Made by a program: the position numbers and the translations under genes. A DNA stretch of 43,576 nucleotides, taken from the NCBI GenBank assembly GCA_023150915.1, contig JAKLKA010000114.1:1-43576 (forward strand), in the 5' to 3' direction. Below, in pieces: positions 4,390 through 16,576 of the stretch. The notes beneath the pieces are model-generated. The model made no database searches and had not been told where the DNA came from. It saw nothing but the letters and a program-made list of their open reading frames with translations. Position 1 is the stretch's first letter, and the number at the start of each line of letters is the position of its first letter. Origin of the DNA: Polyangiaceae bacterium. GTDB taxonomy: Bacteria; Myxococcota_A; Polyangia; Polyangiales; Polyangiaceae.

Positions 4390-6081
4390 GTGCCTCGCAT
4401 CGCAGCCGTGTCCTTGCCGCACCTGATGATCGAGCTCGCGGCCGAGTCGCTGGCGGTGGCCGAGGGCGTGCGGAAGCCGGGCGCGCGGCCCGAGCTGCCA
4501 CCTTTCGCGGTGGTGCTGGTCGCGCGCGCGGGCCGCGCAGAAGGCGATCGTGCGGGCGCTGGTGAGCCGGTGTCGTCGGCTTCGCTGATCGACGCGGTCA
4601 GCGCCGACGCGCGGCGCTTCGGCGTGCGCCCGGGTCAGAGCGTCGCTGAGGCCTGCGCGCTCTTGTCGCGGCTGGCGGTGGTCCCGCTGCCGCGTGAAAC
4701 GCTGGCGGCTGCGCTCGGTCGCGTGGCAGAGGCCGCGCTCGCCTTCGGCGCCACGGTGTCCCTCGAGCCGCCGGACACCGTCTGGGTCGACGTGTCGGGG
4801 GCAGCCCATCTCTTCGGGGGCGAGGCCGCGCTCGGCGCCGAGCTGGCCAGCCGCGCGCGCGCGCTGGGGCACGTGGTGCGCGTCGCCATCGCCGAGGGGC
4901 CCCGCCTTGCGCAAGCGCTGGCGCGCTGGGGCAGCGCGGGCTCCACCCGGGACGAGCGCAGCGTGATCACGGTCGAGGGCCCGCGCACCCGCGCGGCCAT
5001 GGCGCTCTTGCCCATCACCGCCCTGCCCATGGCTGAAGAGCACGTGGCGTGGTTCGCTCGCCTCGGCGTGCTCAGTCTGGGGCAGCTGGCCGAGCTGCCG
5101 CGGGCGGCGGCGGCGGCGCGGCTGGGCGCCGAGGCCGATCGCGCCCTCGATCTGGCGCAGGGGCGCGACGACTCTCCGCTGGTGGCGTATCGCCCCCCGA
5201 GCCTGCTGTCGGAGCACAGCGAGTGGGACGAGCCCGCCGAAGGGCTCTCGCCGCTGCTCTTCGTGCTGAGCGGGCTGGTCTCGCGGGTCTCGGCGCGGCT
5301 GGCGGGGCGAGGCGAGGCGGCGCAGAAGCTGGTGCTGGTGCTCGAGCACGATCGCACCATCGCGCGTCATCGGGGGGTGCCGCTGGAAAAGGCGTTGGTG
5401 TTCGATCTGGCGTCGCCGCTCTGGCGCGCGGAAGAGATGAAGCGCGTGATCGTCTCGCGGCTCGAGCGCACCCGGCTCGAAGCGCCCAGTATCGGCCTTC
5501 GGCTCGAGGTGCCGGCCATCATCCGCGCGCTCGGTCGCCAGCTCGATCTGTCGCGGGTCTCGGGCGGGGTCACCGGGCAAAAAGGGCTCGAGTCGCTGCC
5601 GGTGATCCTGGCCGAGCTGGTGGCCGACATCGGTCGCGAGCGGGTGGGGGTGCTCGCCCTGCTCGATGCGCATCGCCCGGAAAAGCAGCACGCGCTTCGG
5701 CCGGCGCTGCCCGAGCCCGGCTCGCTGCTCACGCCCCAGAAGCGCTCGAAGAAGAGGGCCCGCCCCGAGCCCGAGCTGGTGAGCCGCGTGCGCTCGCTCG
5801 CGGCCGCGAAGCAGGGCGTGCCTACGCGGCTCTTGCCCGCACCGGTGCCCCTCGCCGCCGCGCTCCGGGTCGGTGCCACGCTGCGCATCGATCACCGGCT
5901 ATTCACCATCGATCGCATCGGCTTCGTCGAGCGGCTAGAGGCCGTCGAGTGGTGGACGGGCGCGCCCGTTGCGCGGGACTACCTGCGGCTCTGGCTCGGC
6001 AGCAGCGACGGCGGGCTCGACGCACTGGTGTACGTCGATCGGCAGAGCGGCAAGCGCTTCTTGCAAGCGGTGGGGGATTGA
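4390..6081 (+). CDS. imuB: ImuB, catalytically inactive Y-family polymerase homologue
   Basis: A 563-residue protein starting at GTG 4390. Family marks are the N-terminal beta strand RIAAVSLPHLMIELAAES, the diagnostic WVDVSGAAHLFGGE (about residues 131-144), the helix-hairpin-helix stretch LGVLSLGQLAELPRAAAAARLG, and the C-terminal RDYLRLWL followed by YVDRQSGKRFLQAVG. The acidic catalytic residues of true Y-family polymerases (the DxD near the N-terminus and the SxDE motif) are absent, as is normal for ImuB. The protein is expected to bridge the beta clamp and DnaE2. I did not find an obvious beta-clamp binding motif by eye. It is translated with imuA; dnaE2 lies 11 kb downstream on the same strand. 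Confidence 0.9.
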   Translation: MPRIAAVSLPHLMIELAAESLAVAEGVRKPGARPELPPFAVVLVARAGRAEGDRAGAGEPVSSASLIDAVSADARRFGVRPGQSVAEACALLSRLAVVPLPRETLAAALGRVAEAALAFGATVSLEPPDTVWVDVSGAAHLFGGEAALGAELASRARALGHVVRVAIAEGPRLAQALARWGSAGSTRDERSVITVEGPRTRAAMALLPITALPMAEEHVAWFARLGVLSLGQLAELPRAAAAARLGAEADRALDLAQGRDDSPLVAYRPPSLLSEHSEWDEPAEGLSPLLFVLSGLVSRVSARLAGRGEAAQKLVLVLEHDRTIARHRGVPLEKALVFDLASPLWRAEEMKRVIVSRLERTRLEAPSIGLRLEVPAIIRALGRQLDLSRVSGGVTGQKGLESLPVILAELVADIGRERVGVLALLDAHRPEKQHALRPALPEPGSLLTPQKRSKKRARPEPELVSRVRSLAAAKQGVPTRLLPAPVPLAAALRVGATLRIDHRLFTIDRIGFVERLEAVEWWTGAPVARDYLRLWLGSSDGGLDALVYVDRQSGKRFLQAVGD

Positions 6082-6239
6082 GGGAGGGCGCGTGCCACGA
6101 TCTCGCTCCGCGCGAGTGCGCGTGCGTGCGGCACGCACCCACCTTTCTGCTCCTCGACGGACCGTAGTTGTCGCGTCGCAGGGCGAACGCTGATAGCTCT
6201 CGGAGGTGCGGACGGGAGCGCCCGCGGGGAGTGGCGATC
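6082..6239. other. Intergenic region before the TSP3/Kelch gene
   Basis: The 158-bp gap holds no gene that I can support. A GGGGAG at 6226-6231 lies 8 bp before GTG 6240 and is the best ribosome-binding site for the next gene. No clear promoter or terminator was seen. Confidence 0.5.
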
Positions 6240-6881
6240 GTGGCAGTCAAAGACGCAGCGCGAACCGGCCGAGTCGAAGCGGTCTTCCAGGGAAATTTGG
6301 GGGGGGCGAGCAGATCCTCGCGTGCGTGGGCGCGCTGCCTCGTAGCGCTCGCGCTGCTCTGCGCCACCGTGATGATCAGTCGTCACGCTGAAGCCGGCAA
6401 GACCACGGGGGGCAGCCCGACGTGGGAGCTTCCACGCTCGCCATTCGTGCCACACCGCGCGACGCCCTCGGCGCTCGAGTGCGAGATGGACGAGGACGAC
6501 GACGGACTGGACGACGAGATCGAGGGGTTGCTCGCCGAGCGGTTCGTTCCCGTGATCAGATTCGCGAGCGGCGAAGCGCACGTCAAGTCAGGAGCCCAGT
6601 TTCCCGGCGGCAAAGAGCCGTTCGTTGCATTCAATGTGTGGCCGCGCAAGGTGGACGGTGATCTCCGGATCAACATCGTCTTCGCGACGTTGTACACGCG
6701 AGATGGCGGCTACTACTCGCACTTCCCAGGCGGCCAGGGAACGAACTCGCACCCTGGGGACAGCTCGAGCCTCGGGGTTGAGCTCGAGCTGACGCAGAAG
6801 CCTGATGGCCGATGGATGGCCGAGCTCGTCTACCTGAACGGCGGTCAGAAGTGGGCGCGGGACGTCGTCGGCAGTGACTAG
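6240..6881 (+). CDS. N-terminal part of a large exported protein, ending at an in-frame TAG
   Basis: A 213-residue frame starting at GTG 6240, preceded by GGGGAG at an 8-bp distance; TTG 6168 and GTG 6231 are alternatives. A long basic N-terminus leads to a hydrophobic segment (CLVALALLCATVMIS) and AEA, a probable signal peptide. An acidic patch MDEDDDGLDDEIEGLLAE follows, then a beta-rich region with RFVPVIRFASGE, VFATLYTRDGGYYSH and NSHPGDSSSLGVELELTQ. This pattern loosely recalls Vps62-like (HPGDWE-type) domains, a tentative call. The frame stops at TAG 6879-6881, but coding in the same frame resumes at once and continues to 10973, so this is very likely the front part of one longer protein. 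Confidence 0.6.
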   Translation: MAVKDAARTGRVEAVFQGNLGGASRSSRAWARCLVALALLCATVMISRHAEAGKTTGGSPTWELPRSPFVPHRATPSALECEMDEDDDGLDDEIEGLLAERFVPVIRFASGEAHVKSGAQFPGGKEPFVAFNVWPRKVDGDLRINIVFATLYTRDGGYYSHFPGGQGTNSHPGDSSSLGVELELTQKPDGRWMAELVYLNGGQKWARDVVGSD

Positions 6882-6899
6882 GAGAAGGAGGACTACTTC

Positions 6900-9800
6900 T
6901 TGTGGAAGAAGTTCGTGTGCAACCCTCCACAACAAGTGGAAACGTTGTTTCTCGATGCCGACGGCCGACCAGAGGTGCTCGCGTCTTGGGGCAAGCACCA
7001 CTACTACCTGAACGTCGAGCCGTACTTCGTCGAGCGCTACATCGAGGACTGCAGCAGCATCTTCATCGGCGGTTGCTGGGTTCCGATCAAGATGTGGGAC
7101 CTGGTGGACGGCGGGGGCCCGGCGATCAAGCCGACGCTGAAGATGAACTACCCCCTGAGCACGTCCCCCTTGGTCTACAGCAACGTCGGGGATCTGCGTG
7201 GGCCGGGCACCGCGATTGAGGAGGACTGGGTCACGAAATGCGCCGGCTACAAGTTCGTGTACGAACAGGCGTGCAAGTGTGATCCCGCCGCCGGCGTGAC
7301 CTGTCCGCCGCCGGCCCCTGAGGTCGACTGCTACGCCATGTCGCAGCAGGTTGCCTTCTGCAAGTACCCGCCGAGTGGCGTCGATTTGTGGCCGTTCACG
7401 CCCTCCGGGAGCTGTCGCGACCGGACGGACCCCGGCGGGAAACCCCACCCGTCGAAGTTCATCGGCAACATCAACTTCGTCTACTTCGGCGCGTCGTTTC
7501 TTTCGGGATCGCTCTTCTGCGGCGGGCTCTTCGAAGACGGGTGCGAATCCACGCCGCTTCCCGCCGTGGCCGGCAGGGGCGGGGAGAAGGACCTCGACAC
7601 CGACGGCGACGAAACCCCCAATTTCAGCGACCTGTGTCCTCTGCTCCCCGCGGGCCCGTTCGACCATTCCGATCCCGACGGCGATGGGGTCGGCAAGGAC
7701 TGCGATCCGAACCCCAAGTACCGCGACACTTGGATCGGTGCCGGGTTCCCCGAGTACAACTTGCGCGCTTTCAAGCCAGTCCAGGGCGCGCTCGACGACC
7801 CCAAGCGCCGCGGCTGGCTCGACACGGACCAAGACTCGATCACCAACGGCGCAGACTTCTGTCCGGCAACCGCCGGTGGCACCGCCGACCAGCTCCCGAA
7901 CTGGAACGTCTGGGCGGAGCAGTCAGTGTTCGTCCAAGATCCGAGCAACAGCAGCTACGTCGCGTACCAGGACGACGGCAAGGACCTCTCGCCCTACCGC
8001 CCGAAGCCGAGCGACGCGGGGTTCGTCGAGCGCGGATCGCTCTGCGACCCGTACGAGTCCACTCGGATGTGGCAAGAGCCGGCCTGGGCCGCCCAGGTGC
8101 GAGGCGACGTGTGCATGCCGCTCACGCAGTTCGGCACGCCGACCATCCAGGTGCGCGCGACGCCGCTGCGCGGCGTGAGCTCGAACGATCTGGCCTTCAG
8201 CGGCAAGACGTACAAGGAACGGCTCGAGCTGTCGAAGTCCAAGGGCGCCGCGGTACGCGTCGATCCGCGGCGGTGCGCGTGCTCGGCGTTCGACAAGCCG
8301 GCGGCGGTGCGGGACAAGGTCTGCTTCGACCGGTTTACTGGAGAGTGCCCGCGGCGGTCGCCGTTGCCCATCGAACCGAACGATGTGACGCGGTGGTTCG
8401 CTCACGAGTTTCCGGGTTGCGCGCGCACAGCGTCGGACCTGGCCGGTGGCAGCCGCTGCCTCCCGTTCGCCACCAAGGCGCCCGTCGCCGCGTCGGCGTA
8501 TTGCCCGCCATGGGAGCTGACCGGTTGCCCGAAGGCGCCGGCGGATCTCGTTCCCAAGTCGCACAACCTCGGCTGGGACTGGATGATCGAGCGCGCCAAG
8601 TACCCCGGGCACTTCCGGCCCGAGTGGTTCACGAGCGCGGCGGACGCCTTCGGGAAGGGCTACGCCGAGGCCACAGTGGGCTTCACCTTCGCGTCACGGA
8701 CCTACATCGACGGCGTCGTGCCAGGCACGATCTTTCCGGTGGACAGTGACCTCTTCGCGCCGAGGGCGCAGCCGTTCGCGCGGGCCATGGGCCAGCACGC
8801 CGACGTGAACCCTTGGCTCCGCTCCGACGACCCCTCCAAGTCCGAGAGCAAGCTCTCGGCAGAAGACAAGCTTCGTCGGACCGGGAGTCTGCGCACGTAC
8901 TTCTCGGGGTCCTTCGCGCAACCGGCGGAGCCGCACATCGGGCTGAACAAGTACCGCCCCATCGAGTGCGTGCGCATTTACGAAACGGCACCGGACCAGA
9001 CCATCTGGTACATGCCGTACAAGCCGTGCATCCCCATCGAGACTTGCTACGGCAACTGGAACCACCCGGCCTACGCGCTGCTGTTCAGCATCGCGGATCC
9101 AGCTGCGACGAAGGTGGTCGAGGTTTCGAGCGGTGCGACCCAGGCGGTTCAGGTGGTCATGCCCCAGGGCGGGCTCGCATCGCTGGCGTGCCTGCTCGCG
9201 GATTGCGGGCCGCCCCCTGGCGGTGCGGGGTGGCACATCACGGCCGTCCCCGGCAGCACGGAGCTCGCGGGCTACCCCAAGCTGATCGCGGTGTCGACCA
9301 AGCCTCCTTCTACCCCGGGCTTCGCGGGCGACGCTCTAGGCGAGTCATATTGGGTGCTCGATCCCGTCGCGAGCCAGCAAGGGATCGTTGCGTATTCCAT
9401 CACCATGCAGGGCGCCGCGCCTGCGGGTACTGCCTCGAGCACCGTCTTCCTGGGGTCGGAGGACGGAGCGCACGTCGTGGCGTTTGCGGAGCCGACCGCG
9501 GCTGCCGCTGCGCGGCTCCGTGTGCTCGACTTGAGCGACGGGCGCTGGGCCGAGACGCCGCTCGAAGGGCTGGCGGCGCGAAGCGGCGCATCCTACCTGC
9601 TGAACGAGCACGGCCTGTATCGCGCAGGCGGCGAGGCGGCAGGCTCGCTCACCGGCGAGGTCATCGCCATCGACTGGCGCAGCGGGCACTTCGAGACGCT
9701 GGTGGCTGCGGGGACGCTTCCGGCCCGCAGGCAGCCGGCGCTGGCTTGGGACGCCCAGGGCGTGGGTCTGATCTACGGTGGCGGTGCCAGCGCCGACGGT

Positions 9801-10973
9801 GCGTTCCACAACGACGTCTGGTCGCTGCGGTCGGGGCATGCCGCGGCCACCGTGCTCGTCGGCGACTCTGCCGCGGCGCCGGCGACGCTGAGCGCTCGCT
9901 CGCTGCTGGTCGCCACGGGCGTGACCGGCGAAGCGCTCTGGTGGGATGCACCCACGTACGTCGTCGGAGAGGGGCTCCGGCACGCGCTGCGCAAGGCCGA
10001 TCTCGGAGGGTGGGTGCTGGCGGACGCGCGGAGCAAGGACGCCACGCCGCCCAGTTGTCCTGACGGAACCGCGCCTCGCCTGTGCGCCAGCGGTGCGGAG
10101 TGGTGGCGGACACCCGGAACGCGCTGTGGCAATGGGCCGTGTGCGTTGGGGCGCGCCGAGCAGGCGAGCTCGGCTCTGCTCGCTGGCGTGGGCGCGACCC
10201 ACGTCGCGCTCGAGCACTCGACCCTGTGGATCGCCCGGGGGAGCAAGCTCGAGCGCTGGAGCCTGCTGGAGCCGGGCAACGCCACCCAGCAGGGCACGCT
10301 CGATCTGGGCAGCTCGATCAACGCCATAGCCGTACGCGACGGCACGGCGCTGGTGGCCACGGGAAGCGCGGTCACCCGCGTGGCCATGGTGGACGGCGCT
10401 CTCGGCGCGCTTTCCACTTCGGTTCCCGTTTGTGACACCGAAGGCATTGCCAGCCTCGGAGCCCGCGGCTGGCTGCTCGCGACTGCCGGTGGAGCCGTGC
10501 TCCTCCAGCCCGACGAGTCGGGGGTGCTGGTCGTAGCGAGCGAGGTCGAGCTCCGCGTGGTCGGCGGGAAGTGGGCGGCAACGCCGCCGAAGCAGCCCGC
10601 GAAAGCCTGCTCGAAATCGACGGGGGTGGGCGAAGGCCAACCCGCGAGCGTTGCCTTCGACGGCCGAGACGTCGAGCTGGCGCGCGGCAACGACGTGCTC
10701 CGGCTCCGCTGGGACGACGCGGGTCAGCTCGCCGTGTCGGACGCGGTCAGCGTCACGGGCAAGCTCCTCGCCGTCCGCTCCGCGAGCTCGCGCGCGTACG
10801 TGGTCGGCAAGCACCCACAGCAGAAGACGGATCTCGAAGTGCTCCTGGGCGCCTCGATGACGCTCGGACCCAAGCACGACGTGGCGAGCTGGGTGGAGTC
10901 GGAGCACAGCGGGCTGTACCGGGCACGAGTGCTCCCCGACGGGCGAGTCGAGGTCGCATGGTTGGCGCAGTAG
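6900..10973 (+). CDS. Large protein with thrombospondin type 3-like and Kelch-like parts (main part, after TAG)
   Basis: A 1357-codon frame, in the same frame as the gene ending at 6881 and separated from it only by TAG and six sense codons (EKEDYF). Its first residues complete the beta domain begun upstream (LFLDADGRPEVLASWGKHHY). Thrombospondin type 3-like calcium-binding acidic repeats lie at about residues 231-315 (DTDGDETPNFSDLCP, DPDGDGVGKDCDPNP, DTDQDSITNGADFCP). A cysteine-rich middle follows. The C-terminal third is beta-propeller-like, with a Kelch-type motif near residues 945-975 (LIYGGGASADGAFHNDVWSL). If translated alone, TTG 6900 has a perfect AAGGAGG (6885-6891) 8 bp upstream. 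It is probably a cell-surface or secreted protein. The 3' end overlaps the next gene by 16 bp. Confidence 0.65.
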   Translation: MWKKFVCNPPQQVETLFLDADGRPEVLASWGKHHYYLNVEPYFVERYIEDCSSIFIGGCWVPIKMWDLVDGGGPAIKPTLKMNYPLSTSPLVYSNVGDLRGPGTAIEEDWVTKCAGYKFVYEQACKCDPAAGVTCPPPAPEVDCYAMSQQVAFCKYPPSGVDLWPFTPSGSCRDRTDPGGKPHPSKFIGNINFVYFGASFLSGSLFCGGLFEDGCESTPLPAVAGRGGEKDLDTDGDETPNFSDLCPLLPAGPFDHSDPDGDGVGKDCDPNPKYRDTWIGAGFPEYNLRAFKPVQGALDDPKRRGWLDTDQDSITNGADFCPATAGGTADQLPNWNVWAEQSVFVQDPSNSSYVAYQDDGKDLSPYRPKPSDAGFVERGSLCDPYESTRMWQEPAWAAQVRGDVCMPLTQFGTPTIQVRATPLRGVSSNDLAFSGKTYKERLELSKSKGAAVRVDPRRCACSAFDKPAAVRDKVCFDRFTGECPRRSPLPIEPNDVTRWFAHEFPGCARTASDLAGGSRCLPFATKAPVAASAYCPPWELTGCPKAPADLVPKSHNLGWDWMIERAKYPGHFRPEWFTSAADAFGKGYAEATVGFTFASRTYIDGVVPGTIFPVDSDLFAPRAQPFARAMGQHADVNPWLRSDDPSKSESKLSAEDKLRRTGSLRTYFSGSFAQPAEPHIGLNKYRPIECVRIYETAPDQTIWYMPYKPCIPIETCYGNWNHPAYALLFSIADPAATKVVEVSSGATQAVQVVMPQGGLASLACLLADCGPPPGGAGWHITAVPGSTELAGYPKLIAVSTKPPSTPGFAGDALGESYWVLDPVASQQGIVAYSITMQGAAPAGTASSTVFLGSEDGAHVVAFAEPTAAAAARLRVLDLSDGRWAETPLEGLAARSGASYLLNEHGLYRAGGEAAGSLTGEVIAIDWRSGHFETLVAAGTLPARRQPALAWDAQGVGLIYGGGASADGAFHNDVWSLRSGHAAATVLVGDSAAAPATLSARSLLVATGVTGEALWWDAPTYVVGEGLRHALRKADLGGWVLADARSKDATPPSCPDGTAPRLCASGAEWWRTPGTRCGNGPCALGRAEQASSALLAGVGATHVALEHSTLWIARGSKLERWSLLEPGNATQQGTLDLGSSINAIAVRDGTALVATGSAVTRVAMVDGALGALSTSVPVCDTEGIASLGARGWLLATAGGAVLLQPDESGVLVVASEVELRVVGGKWAATPPKQPAKACSKSTGVGEGQPASVAFDGRDVELARGNDVLRLRWDDAGQLAVSDAVSVTGKLLAVRSASSRAYVVGKHPQQKTDLEVLLGASMTLGPKHDVASWVESEHSGLYRARVLPDGRVEVAWLAQ

Positions 10974-12274
10974 CCGTGTCGCGAAGCCTCGCCACCGCCT
11001 TGATCGCCGTCGGGGCGCTGGTGGCGCTGCGGACCTTCGGGAGCTGCTCGTCGCCGCCCGAGGCGCCCGGCGGCGCCGCGGACGCGGCGGCGGATCAGGG
11101 GACGGACGGGGACGCTGGCGCGCCCGATTCGCCAGCGGACGCCCCCGCCGATCACGCAACGCCGCCGTGGGATCCCGTGTGGCACGAAACCAAGCCGGCG
11201 TCGTTTCAGGTCGTGCCGCCGGGTCCGCGGCGCGGGACTTCATGTGGTCCGCGCTGCAAGGTGATCGCTGAGACCGCGCCCGCTCCCGGCGCCGGGCGCC
11301 GCCCCCGGGCGAACGACGACTGGGCCGTTTTCCAGGTCGTCCCGGGCGGAAGAGTCCACGCGGTTCAGCTCGCCACGGGCACCGAGTACGTGGTCGACGA
11401 CGGCAAGGGATGGCCGGAGGGCGAGGGCGCAGGCGGCGGTCCATCCGTTTCCGGCGGCCACGCGTTCTACGGAGTTACTACGTGGTGGGGCGGGCTGTTG
11501 GTGGTGCGATCACTCACGACTGGCGAGGGCAAAGTCGTCTTTTCCTGGGACGCGCCGGTCGGCCAGACCGGCGCAATCACGACGAGCTTCGCGTTTCCGT
11601 TCCTGTTCTGGGAGTTCGTCGTGCCCAACGCCATCCATCGCTTCGACCTGCGTGATGGAACCACGAAGTCCAGCGCGGGCGGCGGCTGCATCATTCTCGA
11701 AGGGGCGAGCAATGGCCTGGCGACGTGCGCGGGTGAAGGCTTCGTGGATCTCATCGACTTTGATGCCGGCACCACCAAGAAGCTCAGCAAGAGCGCGTAC
11801 GCCGACATCGCGGGGAGCATCTCGCCGGACGGCAAGACGGCGGCCTGGATCGATACGCGAGATCCGGCGGCCAACGGCAAGCACAGCACGTGGCTCGATC
11901 CGTACGGCGGCGAGGTCTACACCAAGGAATTGCTGACGGGTGTGGAAACGCGGGTCACCTGGGATTCCCCGGCGACGCCGACGCTCAAGTCGTTCCCACG
12001 ACTGGCCTCGGGCAGGCTCGTGTGGCGCTCGCGGAGCGGTTTGCCTGTCGAGTCCCCCAGTGATCACTTCGCCTGGCAGCTTCCAACACCGGTGTGGGCC
12101 AGTATCGGCGGGCAGAAGCCGGCGCCGCTCCGCGACCCTCCGGCCTGGATGGAATTCCCTGAGCCCCTCTCGAGCGGAGTCGTGGGGACGCTCGACCAAC
12201 CTGCAGACGGCGGCGCCACCCTCGACTGGTTTCTCGTCCACATCGACTGGCCGCCCGGTGCGGACGGTGGGTGA
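10958..12274 (+). CDS. Beta-propeller lipoprotein, copy 1 of tandem pair
   Basis: 438 residues from ATG 10958, overlapping the previous gene; GTG 10976 is an alternative start. The N-terminal hydrophobic segment ends in FGSC, a plausible lipobox, followed by an Asp/Ala/Pro-rich spacer. The rest shows repeated beta strands of a TolB/WD40-like propeller: DDWAVFQVVPGGRVHAVQ, GSISPDGKTAAWIDTRD and GEVYTKELLTGVETRVTW. Conserved cysteines occur at GSC, SCGPRC and GGGC. The gene at 12341 is a close duplicate. The function is unknown; overlap with the TSP3/Kelch gene suggests they are expressed together. Confidence 0.75.
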   Translation: MVGAVAVSRSLATALIAVGALVALRTFGSCSSPPEAPGGAADAAADQGTDGDAGAPDSPADAPADHATPPWDPVWHETKPASFQVVPPGPRRGTSCGPRCKVIAETAPAPGAGRRPRANDDWAVFQVVPGGRVHAVQLATGTEYVVDDGKGWPEGEGAGGGPSVSGGHAFYGVTTWWGGLLVVRSLTTGEGKVVFSWDAPVGQTGAITTSFAFPFLFWEFVVPNAIHRFDLRDGTTKSSAGGGCIILEGASNGLATCAGEGFVDLIDFDAGTTKKLSKSAYADIAGSISPDGKTAAWIDTRDPAANGKHSTWLDPYGGEVYTKELLTGVETRVTWDSPATPTLKSFPRLASGRLVWRSRSGLPVESPSDHFAWQLPTPVWASIGGQKPAPLRDPPAWMEFPEPLSSGVVGTLDQPADGGATLDWFLVHIDWPPGADGG

Positions 12275-12290
12275 GCTCGTGACCGGGCAA

Positions 12291-12356
12291 AGCGGGCTGT
12301 ATCGGGCACGGGTGCTCCCCGACGGGCGAGTCGAGGTCGCATGGTTGGTGCAGTAG
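12291..12356 (+). pseudogene. 3'-end remnant of the TSP3/Kelch gene carried in a duplication
   Basis: The 66 bp encode SGLYRARVLPDGRVEVAWLV-Q-stop and match the last 66 bp of the large gene (10908-10973) with few changes, at an offset of exactly 1383 bp. This is the same offset as between the two downstream lipoprotein start codons. The piece has no gene of its own, so it marks the left end of the duplicated unit. Confidence 0.85.
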
Positions 12357-13645
12357 CCGTGTCGCGAAGCCTCGCCACCGCCTTGATCGCCGTCGGAGCG
12401 CTGGTGGCGTTGCGGACGTTCGGGAGCTGCTCGTCGCCGCCCGAGGCGCCCAGCGGCGCCGCGGACGCGGCGGCGGATCAGGGGACGGACGGGGACGCTG
12501 GCGCGCCAGATTCGCCAGCGGACGCCCCCGCCGATCACGCAACGCCGCCGTGGGATCCCGTGTGGCACGAGACCAAACCGGCGTCGTTTCAGGTCGTGCC
12601 GGCAGGTCCGCGGCGCGCCAAGGGCTGCGGACCCGCCTGCAAGGTTATCGCGGAGACCGATCCCGAGGGGACCGGCGAGCGCCGCCCACGTGCGAACGAC
12701 GACTGGGCCGTCTTCCAGGTCGTTCCAGGCGGAAGAGTCCACGCGGTTCACCTCGCCACGGGCACCGAGTACGTCGTCGACGACGGCAAGGGATGGCCGG
12801 AGGGTGTCGGCGCGGGCGGGGGGCCATCCGTCTCCAAGGAGCTCATCTTCTACGGCGTCAGCACCTGGTGGGGCGGGATGATGATCCTGCGCTCACTCAC
12901 CACCGGAGAGGCCAAGGTTGTGTGGTCGCGCGAAGGAAACGGAGGAACGATGACGACGTCGTTCTCCGATCCTTACCTGTATTGGGCGCACGGCCCACCT
13001 GAGTTGCTCTACCGGTTCGATTTCCGGAATGGGGCGATCAGATCGGTGCCTGACGGCGGCTGCATCATTCTCGAAGGGGCGAGCAATGGCCTGGCGACAT
13101 GCGCGGGCGAGGGCTTCGTGGACCTCATCGACTTCGACGCGGGCACCGCCAAGAAGCTCAGCAAGAGCGCGTACGCCGACATCGCGGGGAGCATCTCGCC
13201 CGACGGCAAGACGGCGGCCTGGATCGACACGCGAGATCCGGCAGCCAATGGCAAGCACAGCACGTGGCTCGATCCGTACGGCGGCGAGGTCTACACCAAG
13301 GACTTGCTGACGGGTGTGGAAACGCGGGTCACCTGGGATTCGCCCCAGAAGCCGGCCGTCAAGACCTTCCCTCGCTTCGTCGCCGGCCGGCTCGTGTGGC
13401 AGTCATGGGCTGGAATGGATGGCGGGGGTCCGCAGTCCCAGGATCTTTGGCAAACCGCATCCCCCCTGTGGCACACGGTGGACGGGGGCAAGCCGGTCGC
13501 GTTGGCGGGAAGCGACCGCCGTTTCACCTTCCCCCAGCCTGCCACCATCGGAGTGGTTGCAACGCTCTACGAGCTTGCTGACGGGGCTGCCGCCCAGTCC
13601 TCGTTGGTTCTCCTCGACTGGCCGACCGGTGCGGAGGGCGGGTGA
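12341..13645 (+). CDS. Beta-propeller lipoprotein, copy 2 of tandem pair
   Basis: 434 residues from ATG 12341. The first 80 residues are almost identical to copy 1, including the signal segment and FGSC lipobox. A second block (13055-13344, against 11681-11970) has about 14 differences in roughly 290 bp by eye. Between these blocks, and in the last 100 residues, the copies differ strongly (for example SREGNGGTMTTSFSDPYLYW here against SWDAPVGQTGAITTSFAFPF). This pattern suggests duplication followed by divergence with some gene conversion. Predicted fold and location are as for copy 1. The divergent blades may bind different partners. Confidence 0.78.
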   Translation: MVGAVAVSRSLATALIAVGALVALRTFGSCSSPPEAPSGAADAAADQGTDGDAGAPDSPADAPADHATPPWDPVWHETKPASFQVVPAGPRRAKGCGPACKVIAETDPEGTGERRPRANDDWAVFQVVPGGRVHAVHLATGTEYVVDDGKGWPEGVGAGGGPSVSKELIFYGVSTWWGGMMILRSLTTGEAKVVWSREGNGGTMTTSFSDPYLYWAHGPPELLYRFDFRNGAIRSVPDGGCIILEGASNGLATCAGEGFVDLIDFDAGTAKKLSKSAYADIAGSISPDGKTAAWIDTRDPAANGKHSTWLDPYGGEVYTKDLLTGVETRVTWDSPQKPAVKTFPRFVAGRLVWQSWAGMDGGGPQSQDLWQTASPLWHTVDGGKPVALAGSDRRFTFPQPATIGVVATLYELADGAAAQSSLVLLDWPTGAEGG

Positions 13646-13825
13646 GCCGCCAACGGCCCGCAGCCCGCGTGTCGTGTCAGGACTTCCGATCAGGCGCGGG
13701 TCAGGTGCTGTCGAAAAAAGCGCACGTTCGAGCGCCGAGAGGGCGCGGAAATCGTGGCGCGACGGAACGCTTCGTGGGGCTGATCCGCGTCACCGAGCCG
13801 CTGCTTGCGCGCGGCGGGGGACTGA
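13646..13825. other. Gap between convergent genes
   Basis: The 180 bp between the second propeller gene and the disrupted end of the lectin gene hold no gene that I can support. A bidirectional terminator would be expected here, but I saw no strong hairpin with a T run. Confidence 0.5.
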
Positions 13826-14132
13826 TCACCCCTCGGTCAGCGAGACCGCGTCGATGTACCAGCCTGCGCCGTTGCCCACCGGCTTCACGCCCATGAAGTG
13901 GAAGCCCTCCTGGTCTCCCAACCGGCCCAGTCGCGCCAGCGCAGGGTGGCCTTGGTCCAGCTGGCTGGGATCACCGCGGCGAAGCTCGAGATGCTGTCGT
14001 TCTCGGGCACCGTGCTGGTGCATTTGTCCCAGCCCTCGATGTTGCCCAGGCTGTTGAAGCAGTCGTTCAAGATCGTGCCCCACATGCCGGTGTGCCCCGC
14101 CGAGGTGGTGGGCTTGTTCAGCACCACGCCCG
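13826..14132 (-). pseudogene. Frame-disrupted C-terminal tail of the SUEL-lectin lipoprotein
   Basis: Two frames continue the protein of the gene at 14133. The first reads LTGVVLNKPTTSAGHTGMWG, then ILNDCFNSLGNIEGWDKC and ATLRWRDWAGWET (to about 13912). The second reads QEGFHFMGVKPVGN and GAGWYIDAVSLTEG before a stop at 13826. Restoring one C near 14136-14138 (CAGCCCTGA) and one C near 13912 (GAGACCAGG) would join all three pieces into one protein ending at 13826. The tail looks like the end of a beta-sandwich, possibly carbohydrate-binding, domain. Either the gene is decaying or the assembly has two one-base errors. Confidence 0.7.
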
Positions 14133-15176
14133 TCAGGGCTGGCAGAGCTTGTAGGCGGGGTGCGCTGCCAGCGGCTTGCAGGTCAGCCCCCCCGCGCACG
14201 AGCCCGTGCCGCCACACACCGTCTTGTCGGTGTCGCACTGGCTCGTGTGGACACAGGTCATCGAGTCGACCTGGTTGCCGACGAAGGTGGCGCAGCAGCT
14301 CTGGTTGCCCGAGCAGTCCTCGGGGCCGTCGCACTTCACGGTGACTCCGGAGCAAGCAGCCGAGCTGGACTGACAGGCATCGATCGACGCGAGGCAGCAA
14401 TACGACCCGTTCAGGGCGCAGGGCGAGCCGCCGCAGACCACGCTACCCCCGGTCGTGCCTCCGCTGCCGCCCGTCGCGCCGCTGCCTCCCGTGCCTCCGC
14501 TGCCGCCCGTAGCGCCGGTGCCACCGGTAGCGCCGGTGCCACCCGTAGCGCCGGTGCCACCCGTAGCGCCCGTGCCACCCGTAGCGCCGGTGCCACCCGT
14601 AGCGCCGGTGCCACCGGTGCCGACGGCGCACGACCCGCCGCTGCCGCCTGCGCCGCCGGCGCCGCAGGTCGCGACCACGAGCAGGTTCTTGGCGAGCCCG
14701 ACACAGGGGTCGCCGAAGTTGGCGTTGGTGGCGCCCACCGTGCAGCTTGCCTTGCCCAGACAGAAGCACGCGGCCACCGTCTTCGAGCTCGCGGCGTGGC
14801 AGCTTCCGGTCTTGGGATCGGCGCAGCTGCCCGGCGTGCCGTAGCTCGCCAGGCTGACGCCGGTGATCACGGTTCCGCTCGGACAGGTGAGGGTCAGCGA
14901 CGCGTATTCGGCCGCGGTCTGGCAGAGGGTCGCGTCGGTGCCGGCGCTACCCCCGCCCCCGGCACTGCCGCCGCTGCCCGCGCTGCCCCCACTGCCGGCC
15001 GCCCCGCCCGAGCCGCCGCCGCCGCTCGCGCCCGGCCGCACACAGCGCTGGGTGCTGGCGTCGCAGATCCAGCCGTCGGCGCACGGGCAACTCTTGCCGC
15101 CCAGATCCACTGCGTCCACGCTGCAGCCCACCAGCGCGGCGAAGGCGGCGAGGGCGACCGCGCGCAAGGGTGACAT
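14133..15176 (-). CDS. Lipoprotein with SUEL-type (galactose-binding) lectin domain
   Basis: 347 residues from ATG 15176. The signal peptide ends in the lipobox LVGC at residue 18, followed by a small Cys motif (SCPCADGWICDASTQRC) and a Gly/Ser linker. Residues 82-171 match the SUEL/Gal_Lectin pattern: LTLTCPSGTVITGVSLASYG, FCLGKASCTVGATNANFGDP and NLLVVATC. A second linker has six GGTGAT units. The last 100 residues form a Cys-rich domain (YCCLASIDACQSS, DCSGNQSCCATF, VDSMTCVHTSQCD). It is probably a surface protein that binds sugar. The TGA at 14133 follows CQP and is probably a frameshift product, since coding continues downstream. Confidence 0.78.
   Translation of the reverse strand: MSPLRAVALAAFAALVGCSVDAVDLGGKSCPCADGWICDASTQRCVRPGASGGGGSGGAAGSGGSAGSGGSAGGGGSAGTDATLCQTAAEYASLTLTCPSGTVITGVSLASYGTPGSCADPKTGSCHAASSKTVAACFCLGKASCTVGATNANFGDPCVGLAKNLLVVATCGAGGAGGSGGSCAVGTGGTGATGGTGATGGTGATGGTGATGGTGATGGTGATGGSGGTGGSGATGGSGGTTGGSVVCGGSPCALNGSYCCLASIDACQSSSAACSGVTVKCDGPEDCSGNQSCCATFVGNQVDSMTCVHTSQCDTDKTVCGGTGSCAGGLTCKPLAAHPAYKLCQP
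14509..14616. repeat. 18-bp tandem repeat in lectin lipoprotein (6 units)
   Basis: Six end-to-end copies of gtagcgccggtgccaccc, with one or two changes, encode GGTGAT on the minus strand. The unit length keeps the frame when copy number changes. Confidence 0.9.
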
Positions 15177-15193: not shown

Positions 15194-16576
15194 TCAGCGC
15201 GCTGCCAGCTCGGGGCGCAGCGGGCCGTCGGCCACGCCGCCGCCCTTCAGCTTCATCCCGCCGTGGGGCGTGACGGTCGGCAGCTTGGCGAATTGGCTGT
15301 CCAGCAGGCCCCGCATCTCGCCCAGCTTCTCGGGCTCGCTCTTGCTCAGATCCTTCTTCTCGGCCGGATCGCTCTTCAGGTTGAACAGCTTCTCGGGGCC
15401 GGCCTTGTCGCCGAAGCGGATCAGCTTCCAGTCCCCGCTCACCACCGCGCGTCGCGCCGGCTGCACGTTGTCGGCGCACAGCTCGAGCACCACCGGTTTC
15501 TCTTTGCCGGGCTTGCCGTCGATCTCGGGCACCAGGCTCTCGCCCATGACGCTTGCAGGCGTTTCATGCCCCATCAGCTCGAGAATGGTGGGGGCCAGAT
15601 CGACATGCGTGTGCGGCGTCGCCACGCGACGCGGCTCGGCGCCGGGCACGCGGATCAACAGCGGAACGCGGACCAGCTCTTCGTACAGCTCGTGGGCGTG
15701 CTGCATCATGCCGTGCTCGCCGAAGGCTTCGCCGTGATCGGCGCTGATGATCACCGCGGTCTTCTCCCACCAGGGCTGCTTCTCGGCCCAGCTCAAGAGC
15801 TTGCCGACGTGCTGATCGGTATAGTGCACCTCGTTGTCGTAGAGGTCGCGCTCGCTCGAGCCGAAGTCTGGCGACTCGGCGTGCTTGATCCACTGGTGGT
15901 GTGGATCGGTGTAGTGCGTCCAGGCGAAGAACTGGCCCTTCACGTTGTCGGGGTTCGACAGGTGCTTGACCATCAGCTCGTGGGTCTTCGGGCTGGTGAC
16001 GTGGTCGTCGCTGCGCTCGTTGAAGGTGATCCCGGGCACCATGTCCCAGATGTCGAAGCCCTGGTTCAGGCCCTTGCCGCGGTTGAAATACAGGTGCGAC
16101 TGCACGCCGATGGTGCGTACGCCCTTGGCGGACAGCACTTCGGGGAAGAACTCGTTCGAGTCCTGGTAGCCGGCGAAGAAGTAGCCGCTGCGATACAAGG
16201 TCGAGGCGGGCCGACCAGAGAGGATGGCGGGCACGCTCTGGGCGGTGAAGCTGCTCACCGCGCGGTGGGCCTCGAACACCACGTTCTGTTTGGCGAAGCG
16301 CGTCAGGTTCGGGGCTATCTCTCGGGGGTAGCCGGCCCAGGGCATGTCGGCGCGCAGCGCGTCGATGGTCAGCAAGAGCACGTTCAGCGGCTCGCGCTTG
16401 CGCAGCGTCTTCTTGGCGACGGGCGCGGCCGCGGGCTCGCTTGCGGGCTTGGCGGCCGCCGCCTCCGTCTTGGCGGGCTCGGCGGGTTTCGCGGGCTCGG
16501 CGGTCGGCGCCGGCTTCTCGGCGCAGCCGAACATGAGCAGGGGCAGGGTCAGAAGTAGCGAGCGGTCCAGCTCCAT
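15194..16576 (-). CDS. Sulfatase/alkaline phosphatase-superfamily lipoprotein
   Basis: 460 residues from ATG 16576. The lipobox is MFGC at residue 18, followed by a Pro/Ala/Lys-rich spacer to about residue 62. The sulfatase-like fold starts at NVLLLTIDALRAD (metal-binding D72 and D77), has SSFTAQSVPAILSG at 108-121, and has the second metal site ISADHGEAFGEHG near 285. The C-terminal part shows VVSGDWKLIRFGDK and FNLKSDPAEKKDL, typical for sulfatases. The usual C/S-x-P-x-R sequence is not kept: there is no cysteine, and Thr111 or Ser114 would be the nucleophile, with Ile where Arg is expected. It could therefore be a serine-type sulfatase, a phosphodiesterase or a phosphotransferase. It is divergent from the lipoprotein at 16649. 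Confidence 0.8.
   Translation of the reverse strand: MELDRSLLLTLPLLMFGCAEKPAPTAEPAKPAEPAKTEAAAAKPASEPAAAPVAKKTLRKREPLNVLLLTIDALRADMPWAGYPREIAPNLTRFAKQNVVFEAHRAVSSFTAQSVPAILSGRPASTLYRSGYFFAGYQDSNEFFPEVLSAKGVRTIGVQSHLYFNRGKGLNQGFDIWDMVPGITFNERSDDHVTSPKTHELMVKHLSNPDNVKGQFFAWTHYTDPHHQWIKHAESPDFGSSERDLYDNEVHYTDQHVGKLLSWAEKQPWWEKTAVIISADHGEAFGEHGMMQHAHELYEELVRVPLLIRVPGAEPRRVATPHTHVDLAPTILELMGHETPASVMGESLVPEIDGKPGKEKPVVLELCADNVQPARRAVVSGDWKLIRFGDKAGPEKLFNLKSDPAEKKDLSKSEPEKLGEMRGLLDSQFAKLPTVTPHGGMKLKGGGVADGPLRPELAAR

Follow-up and report, generated by a model that had tools for sequence, protein, structure and literature searches.

A gene for a large, probably exported protein is split by a single in-frame TAG at positions 6879-6881 of the window (the whole 43,576-nucleotide stretch analysed, contig 70 of an 8.0-Mb draft genome that is 98.8% complete). 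The interpretation we favor, with a probability of about 0.5, is that the TAG is an isolated, real and recent nonsense change in a formerly intact gene. A possible but less probable alternative is a consensus-base error or a mixture of strains in the assembly, in which case the living gene would be intact. Nonsense change or consensus error accounts for nearly everything observed at this locus. The gene is most likely an ordinary broken or mis-called one in which residual restart or read-through is unlikely, and a new decoding mechanism is most likely not the explanation. The features at the site are the following.

6231-6881, + strand: 5′ part of the split gene, from a putative GTG start to the TAG, with homology to a same-genus protein
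6879-6881, + strand: in-frame TAG, from the sequence and an alignment of 12 homologues
6882-10973, + strand: 3′ part of the split gene, with the second half of the N-terminal domain followed by TSP3-like and Kelch-like regions (both sub-threshold)
6885-6902, + strand: possible restart, with AAGGAGG at 6885-6891, an 8-nt spacer and TTG at 6900-6902

The TAG lies in frame in the context GGC AGT GAC TAG GAG AAG GAG GAC TAC TTC TTG TGG. On its upstream side the frame is open from a preceding stop at 6165 and contains 216 codons counted from GTG 6231, a start that was picked by eye and has an SD match of only 4 nt. On the downstream side, 1,363 open codons run to a TAG at 10971-10973. The total of 1,580 codons from GTG 6231, internal TAG counted, bears out the proposal of an earlier sequence-only reading that an in-frame TAG splits a protein of about 1,570 codons. 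The 5′ part carries the first half of the N-terminal domain and, near GTG 6231, a segment that by eye resembles a signal peptide (LVALALLCATVMI...AEA). The 3′ part keeps the natural C-terminus, ending in TAG 10971-10973 near the end of its orthologue.

Both halves of the gene match an uninterrupted 1,679-aa protein from a genome of the same genus (G021), with 48% identity for the 5′ part (query residues 1-143) and 41% identity for the 3′ part (residues 9-570, about the first 573 codons). A profile made from the 3′ part and the G021 protein gives a single match at 6249-10970, which spans the site and is reported with '1 TAG'. Because both halves match one same-genus protein and the profile crosses the TAG, the continuity of the frame is not due to chance. 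The open frames and this shared match also uphold the earlier claim that the same frame is used on both sides of the stop.

The codon itself was compared in 12 homologous frames, a check that the sequence-only reading had proposed: the G021 orthologue, a paralogue on contig 111 of the same genome and ten further homologous frames. No stop is present at the aligned site in any of the 12; these are stop-to-stop open frames, uninterrupted by construction, and the informative part of the comparison is that each one traverses the site. One frame (L045) was kept though a contig end cuts it, and five were left out: L035 (the same locus as L034), L046, L047 and L049 (weak or partial matches) and L050 (matching the 3′ part only). 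The TAG is flanked by conserved stretches, HxGD upstream and GKHH downstream, both within one N-terminal domain, in agreement with the earlier view that a single domain lies on both sides. In the other homologues only a short segment separates HxGD from GKHH, and 11 of the 12 frames have a gap at the TAG column. The insertion is common only to the same-genus orthologue among them, which places the stop in a variable loop, where a nonsense change should cost least. The 12 aligned frames, all stop-free here, and the match of both halves to one frame count in favor of a nonsense change. Four explanations had been offered without a choice between them (nonsense mutation, sequencing error, read-through and re-initiation); the stop-free homologues support the first two, and the others are taken up below.

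Two scans of genome contigs (possibly omitting the source genome) and one pattern scan of viral contigs found no closer relatives. At the class level, the 235 codons after the stop match 3 of 317 genomes, namely the source genome, G021 and one marginal case (E = 9e-4). In an order-level profile search, for which two candidates per genome were scored for this long model, 33/183 genomes match somewhere, many over only a short stretch. Four rows of this search contain an internal stop: the split gene, G014:C4, G023:C67 and G029:C21. By their coordinates, the matches of the last three either fall within the profile's leader region or start upstream of the homologue's open frame, and they were not taken as split homologues. 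When the G021 orthologue is read from its first ATG (L033:4335-9374), a STQHAAR repeat precedes the signal-peptide-like stretch, and the true start may be later.

The description of the product as a TSP3/Kelch protein is matched by weak profile hits in the 3′ part, but all are below the family cut-offs. The Kelch profile PF24681 gives E = 3.3e-6 (27 bits against a cut-off of 50), TSP_3 gives E = 0.023 (14.8 bits against 25) and the MtsC profile NF047638 gives E = 1.8e-5 over part of the model (23.9 bits against 350). The weak MtsC match, together with GC and genome size, suggests a myxobacterium-like genome. For the N-terminal domain there is no Pfam match in the 5′ half of the window or in the three homologous domains scanned, and a search of solved structures gave no match.

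The frame shows no decay. GC3 is 0.80 before the stop and 0.86 after it, with a median of 0.88 for 253 long gene-like frames, and no second internal stop is present over the 1,580 codons. Stop-making changes are 3.4% of all single-base changes in this gene; under a simple neutral model, the probability of at most one nonsense change is 0.003 at 5% divergence per site and 0.53 at 1%. Normal GC3 together with a single nonsense change means that the change is recent, that the 3′ part is under selection or that the base is an error. We count the absence of a second stop and the normal GC3 in favor of a recent nonsense change, and we infer that the base is real and the change recent.

To place the stop in its genomic context, we used a 766-kb convenience sample of the same genome, window included, in which 24 in-frame stops, TAG 6879 among them, meet the criteria for coding on both sides. 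Most of these look like borders of neighboring genes, with a start codon within 9 codons. For the five whose first start is 13 to 61 codons away, Pfam scans show no case with one family on both sides: three have one-sided matches, one has different families on either side and one has no match. At one of the five (L111), a TPR match reaches the stop, and truncation is possible there. By this weak test, the 766-kb sample contains no other clear split gene. TAG 6879 ranks 43rd of 2,750 on a wider 60-codon list, which indicates that homology, and not coding signal alone, singles it out.

A single-base consensus error would look identical to a nonsense change, and several observations are in keeping with one. 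The draft genome is spread over 295 contigs, a bacterial 16S search gave no match (though the same search missed 5/14 control genomes) and the tRNA matches include neither Tyr nor Ile; such gaps are probably typical of short-read metagenome assemblies. The undecayed frame and the lack of a second clear split gene in the sample point the same way. Nothing speaks directly against an error, but the assembly did resolve a tandem duplicate lying 4 kb downstream, whose DNA blocks are 88-91% identical, and so gives no obvious sign of poor local quality. We consider an assembly error plausible, yet place it behind a real nonsense change.

Reassignment of TAG in this organism, or its use for pyrrolysine, has only the open frame in its favor and is exceedingly improbable. 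RF1 is found in the genome above its cut-off, and TAG is an ordinary terminator, ending, in the 766-kb sample, 30 of the 243 long gene-like frames whose stop is visible, as well as the split gene itself; both facts count for a nonsense change. The best PylS match in the genome scores 29.5 bits against a cut-off of 178.15, with a profile to which 13/14 control genomes also respond, one of them passing. A CUA anticodon is absent from all 43 whole-genome tRNA matches, an incomplete set whose gaps, noted above, might conceivably hide a suppressor; 42 were given an anticodon and the remaining one contains no CTA. A wider scan with 62 predictions (overlapping loci counted repeatedly) also yielded no CUA, with two predictions lacking an assignable anticodon. 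On the RF1, PylS, tRNA and TAG-usage results, we reject a change of genetic code or pyrrolysine, and the same results disfavor read-through in the form of reassignment.

Low-level read-through of TAG 6879, giving some full-length protein, is very unlikely. In its favor, the 3′ frame is intact, and a survey of in-frame stops in bacteria holds that many of the affected genes are no pseudogenes and considers read-through frequent (Belinky et al. 2021, PMC7918605). This view, and the dN/dS below 1 reported there for genes with in-frame stops, count against a plain nonsense change. The same authors describe in-frame stops as widespread and mostly short-lived, many of them tolerated and read through (PMC7918605). 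At this site, however, the RNA structure is unremarkable (z = -0.29 downstream of the stop and +0.81 across it), no suppressor tRNA was seen in the tRNA scans and the aligned homologues do not share the TAG, whose conservation would be expected of programmed read-through. A recoding RNA structure was rejected as a candidate, since the folds around the stop are no stabler than shuffles and positions 6000-14000 contain no Rfam match. The local read-through raised by the sequence-only reading thus gains no positive evidence from folds downstream of or across the stop.

One feature of the site is predicted neither by a random nonsense change nor by an error, and we give it weight for this reason. 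The AAGGAGG reported 8 bp before TTG 6900 is indeed present, placing a 7-nt SD match and a start within 7 codons of the stop, with a stop-to-TTG gap of 18 nt downstream. In sampled genes, 22,501 codons are one substitution from TAG, and an in-frame start within 10 codons with an SD match of at least 7 nt follows six of them (0.03%); 128 (0.57%) have a match of at least 6 nt. For the split gene alone, the figure is 5/282 (1.8%), real TAG included, all ahead of this same TTG 6900 start. Chance frequencies of 0.03-1.8% make the restart signal unusual for a random nonsense site, for a signal that was noticed first and tested afterwards.

The signal could reflect gene fission, in which translation ends at the TAG and begins again at TTG 6900, directed by the AAGGAGG, either with other ribosomes or with those that have just terminated. 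The outcome would be a 1,357-aa product lacking a leader or, at the least, relief of polarity on the overlapping downstream gene. Besides the rarity of the signal next to potential TAG codons, the enrichment of SD-like 4-mers at first in-frame ATGs (43/182, compared with 193/2,140 internal ATGs) favors this reading. The other SD measure does not: the best start in the first 60 codons has a match of at least 5 nt in 35/246 cases, compared with 30/246 for codons 150-210, which is no enrichment. The motif is also simply what encodes Glu-Lys-Glu within a charged loop. As a start codon TTG is weak, and both minimum-energy folds pair its UU within a 7-bp hairpin; the hairpin is absent from the centroid of one fold, and neither fold is stabler than shuffles. 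The product would also be missing the first half of a domain which runs uninterrupted in homologues. Reading by eye shows no signal peptide at the restart, so the objection that re-initiation would leave the main part non-exported stands. The 18-nt gap falls where coupling in E.coli and Haloferax is reduced and variable, according to a study of termination-reinitiation (PMC10666635). In E.coli, a gap of +14 nt cuts reinitiation by 40-80% and one of +38 nt nearly abolishes it; its authors regard gaps between -8 and +10 nt as predicting coupling, and set aside +11 to +20 nt as too variable (PMC10666635). Overall, the signal for the proposed re-initiation is real, and statistically it is unusual, but with no visible export signal and half an N-terminal domain, we judge fission unlikely. 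Rather improbable, too, is a real stop that is tolerated because a strong ribosome-binding site lies just downstream, giving a short exported fragment and a leaderless main part and keeping the downstream lipoprotein-like genes expressed. If true, this would be gene fission in progress.

If the TAG is a real nonsense change, as we favor, its consequences for expression can be inferred. RF1 should terminate translation at TAG 6879, and the product would be a 216-aa fragment carrying the export signal and one half of the first domain. The cell would lose most of the main part, and the overlapping downstream gene would probably be translated less. The features downstream are the following.

10958-12274, + strand: downstream gene, 438 aa, whose ATG overlaps the end of the split gene
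12284-12373, + strand: duplication scar, a 94.5%-identical copy of 10900-10990
12341-13645, + strand: tandem duplicate of the downstream gene, 434 aa, 74% protein identity

The downstream gene has a signal- or lipoprotein-like start (read by eye) and a weak PD40 match below the cut-off. A homologue of it lies 3′ of the G021 orthologue (46% identity) and another 3′ of the paralogue (26%). The two genes form a recurring cassette, seen at the split gene, at the paralogue in the same genome (L034:13013-18243) and at the G021 orthologue (L033:3055-9374). The tandem duplication covers 10900-13645 with a period of about 1.38 kb, and the lipoprotein-like, weakly PD40-like gene is present in two copies. 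The copied segment 10900-10990 covers the junction where the split gene ends and the next gene begins, and a remnant of the split gene's 3′ end (22 codons, 91% protein identity) remains between the two copies. More divergent stretches separate the similar DNA blocks. Further along, a SUEL-type lectin domain protein and an adjoining sulfatase are encoded at 14133-15176 (- strand) and 15194-16576 (- strand).

If the stop is real, it adds another in-frame stop in a large surface-protein gene and raises the possibility, open to testing, that nonsense changes survive preferentially at sites permitting translation restart. If it is an error, the matter is one of annotation only, and the two ORFs should be described as one disrupted gene rather than two genes.

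Among known systems, MtsC-type TSP3 proteins and Kelch-repeat proteins resemble the split gene through the weak matches of its 3′ part, but these are far under the curated cut-offs. Gene pairs coupled by termination-reinitiation, as described in PMC10666635, share with it a stop closely followed by an SD sequence and a start. In those pairs the commonest spacings are -4 or -1, in contrast to +18 nt here. The pairs also differ in that the stop here divides one domain, so that neither product is a complete protein or domain, and the second product has no visible export signal. Nonsense-disrupted bacterial genes, whether pseudogenes or carriers of polymorphic in-frame stops (PMC7918605), resemble the split gene in several respects: a single in-frame stop, a conserved and undecayed frame, and an orthologue and paralogues that are stop-free at the aligned site.
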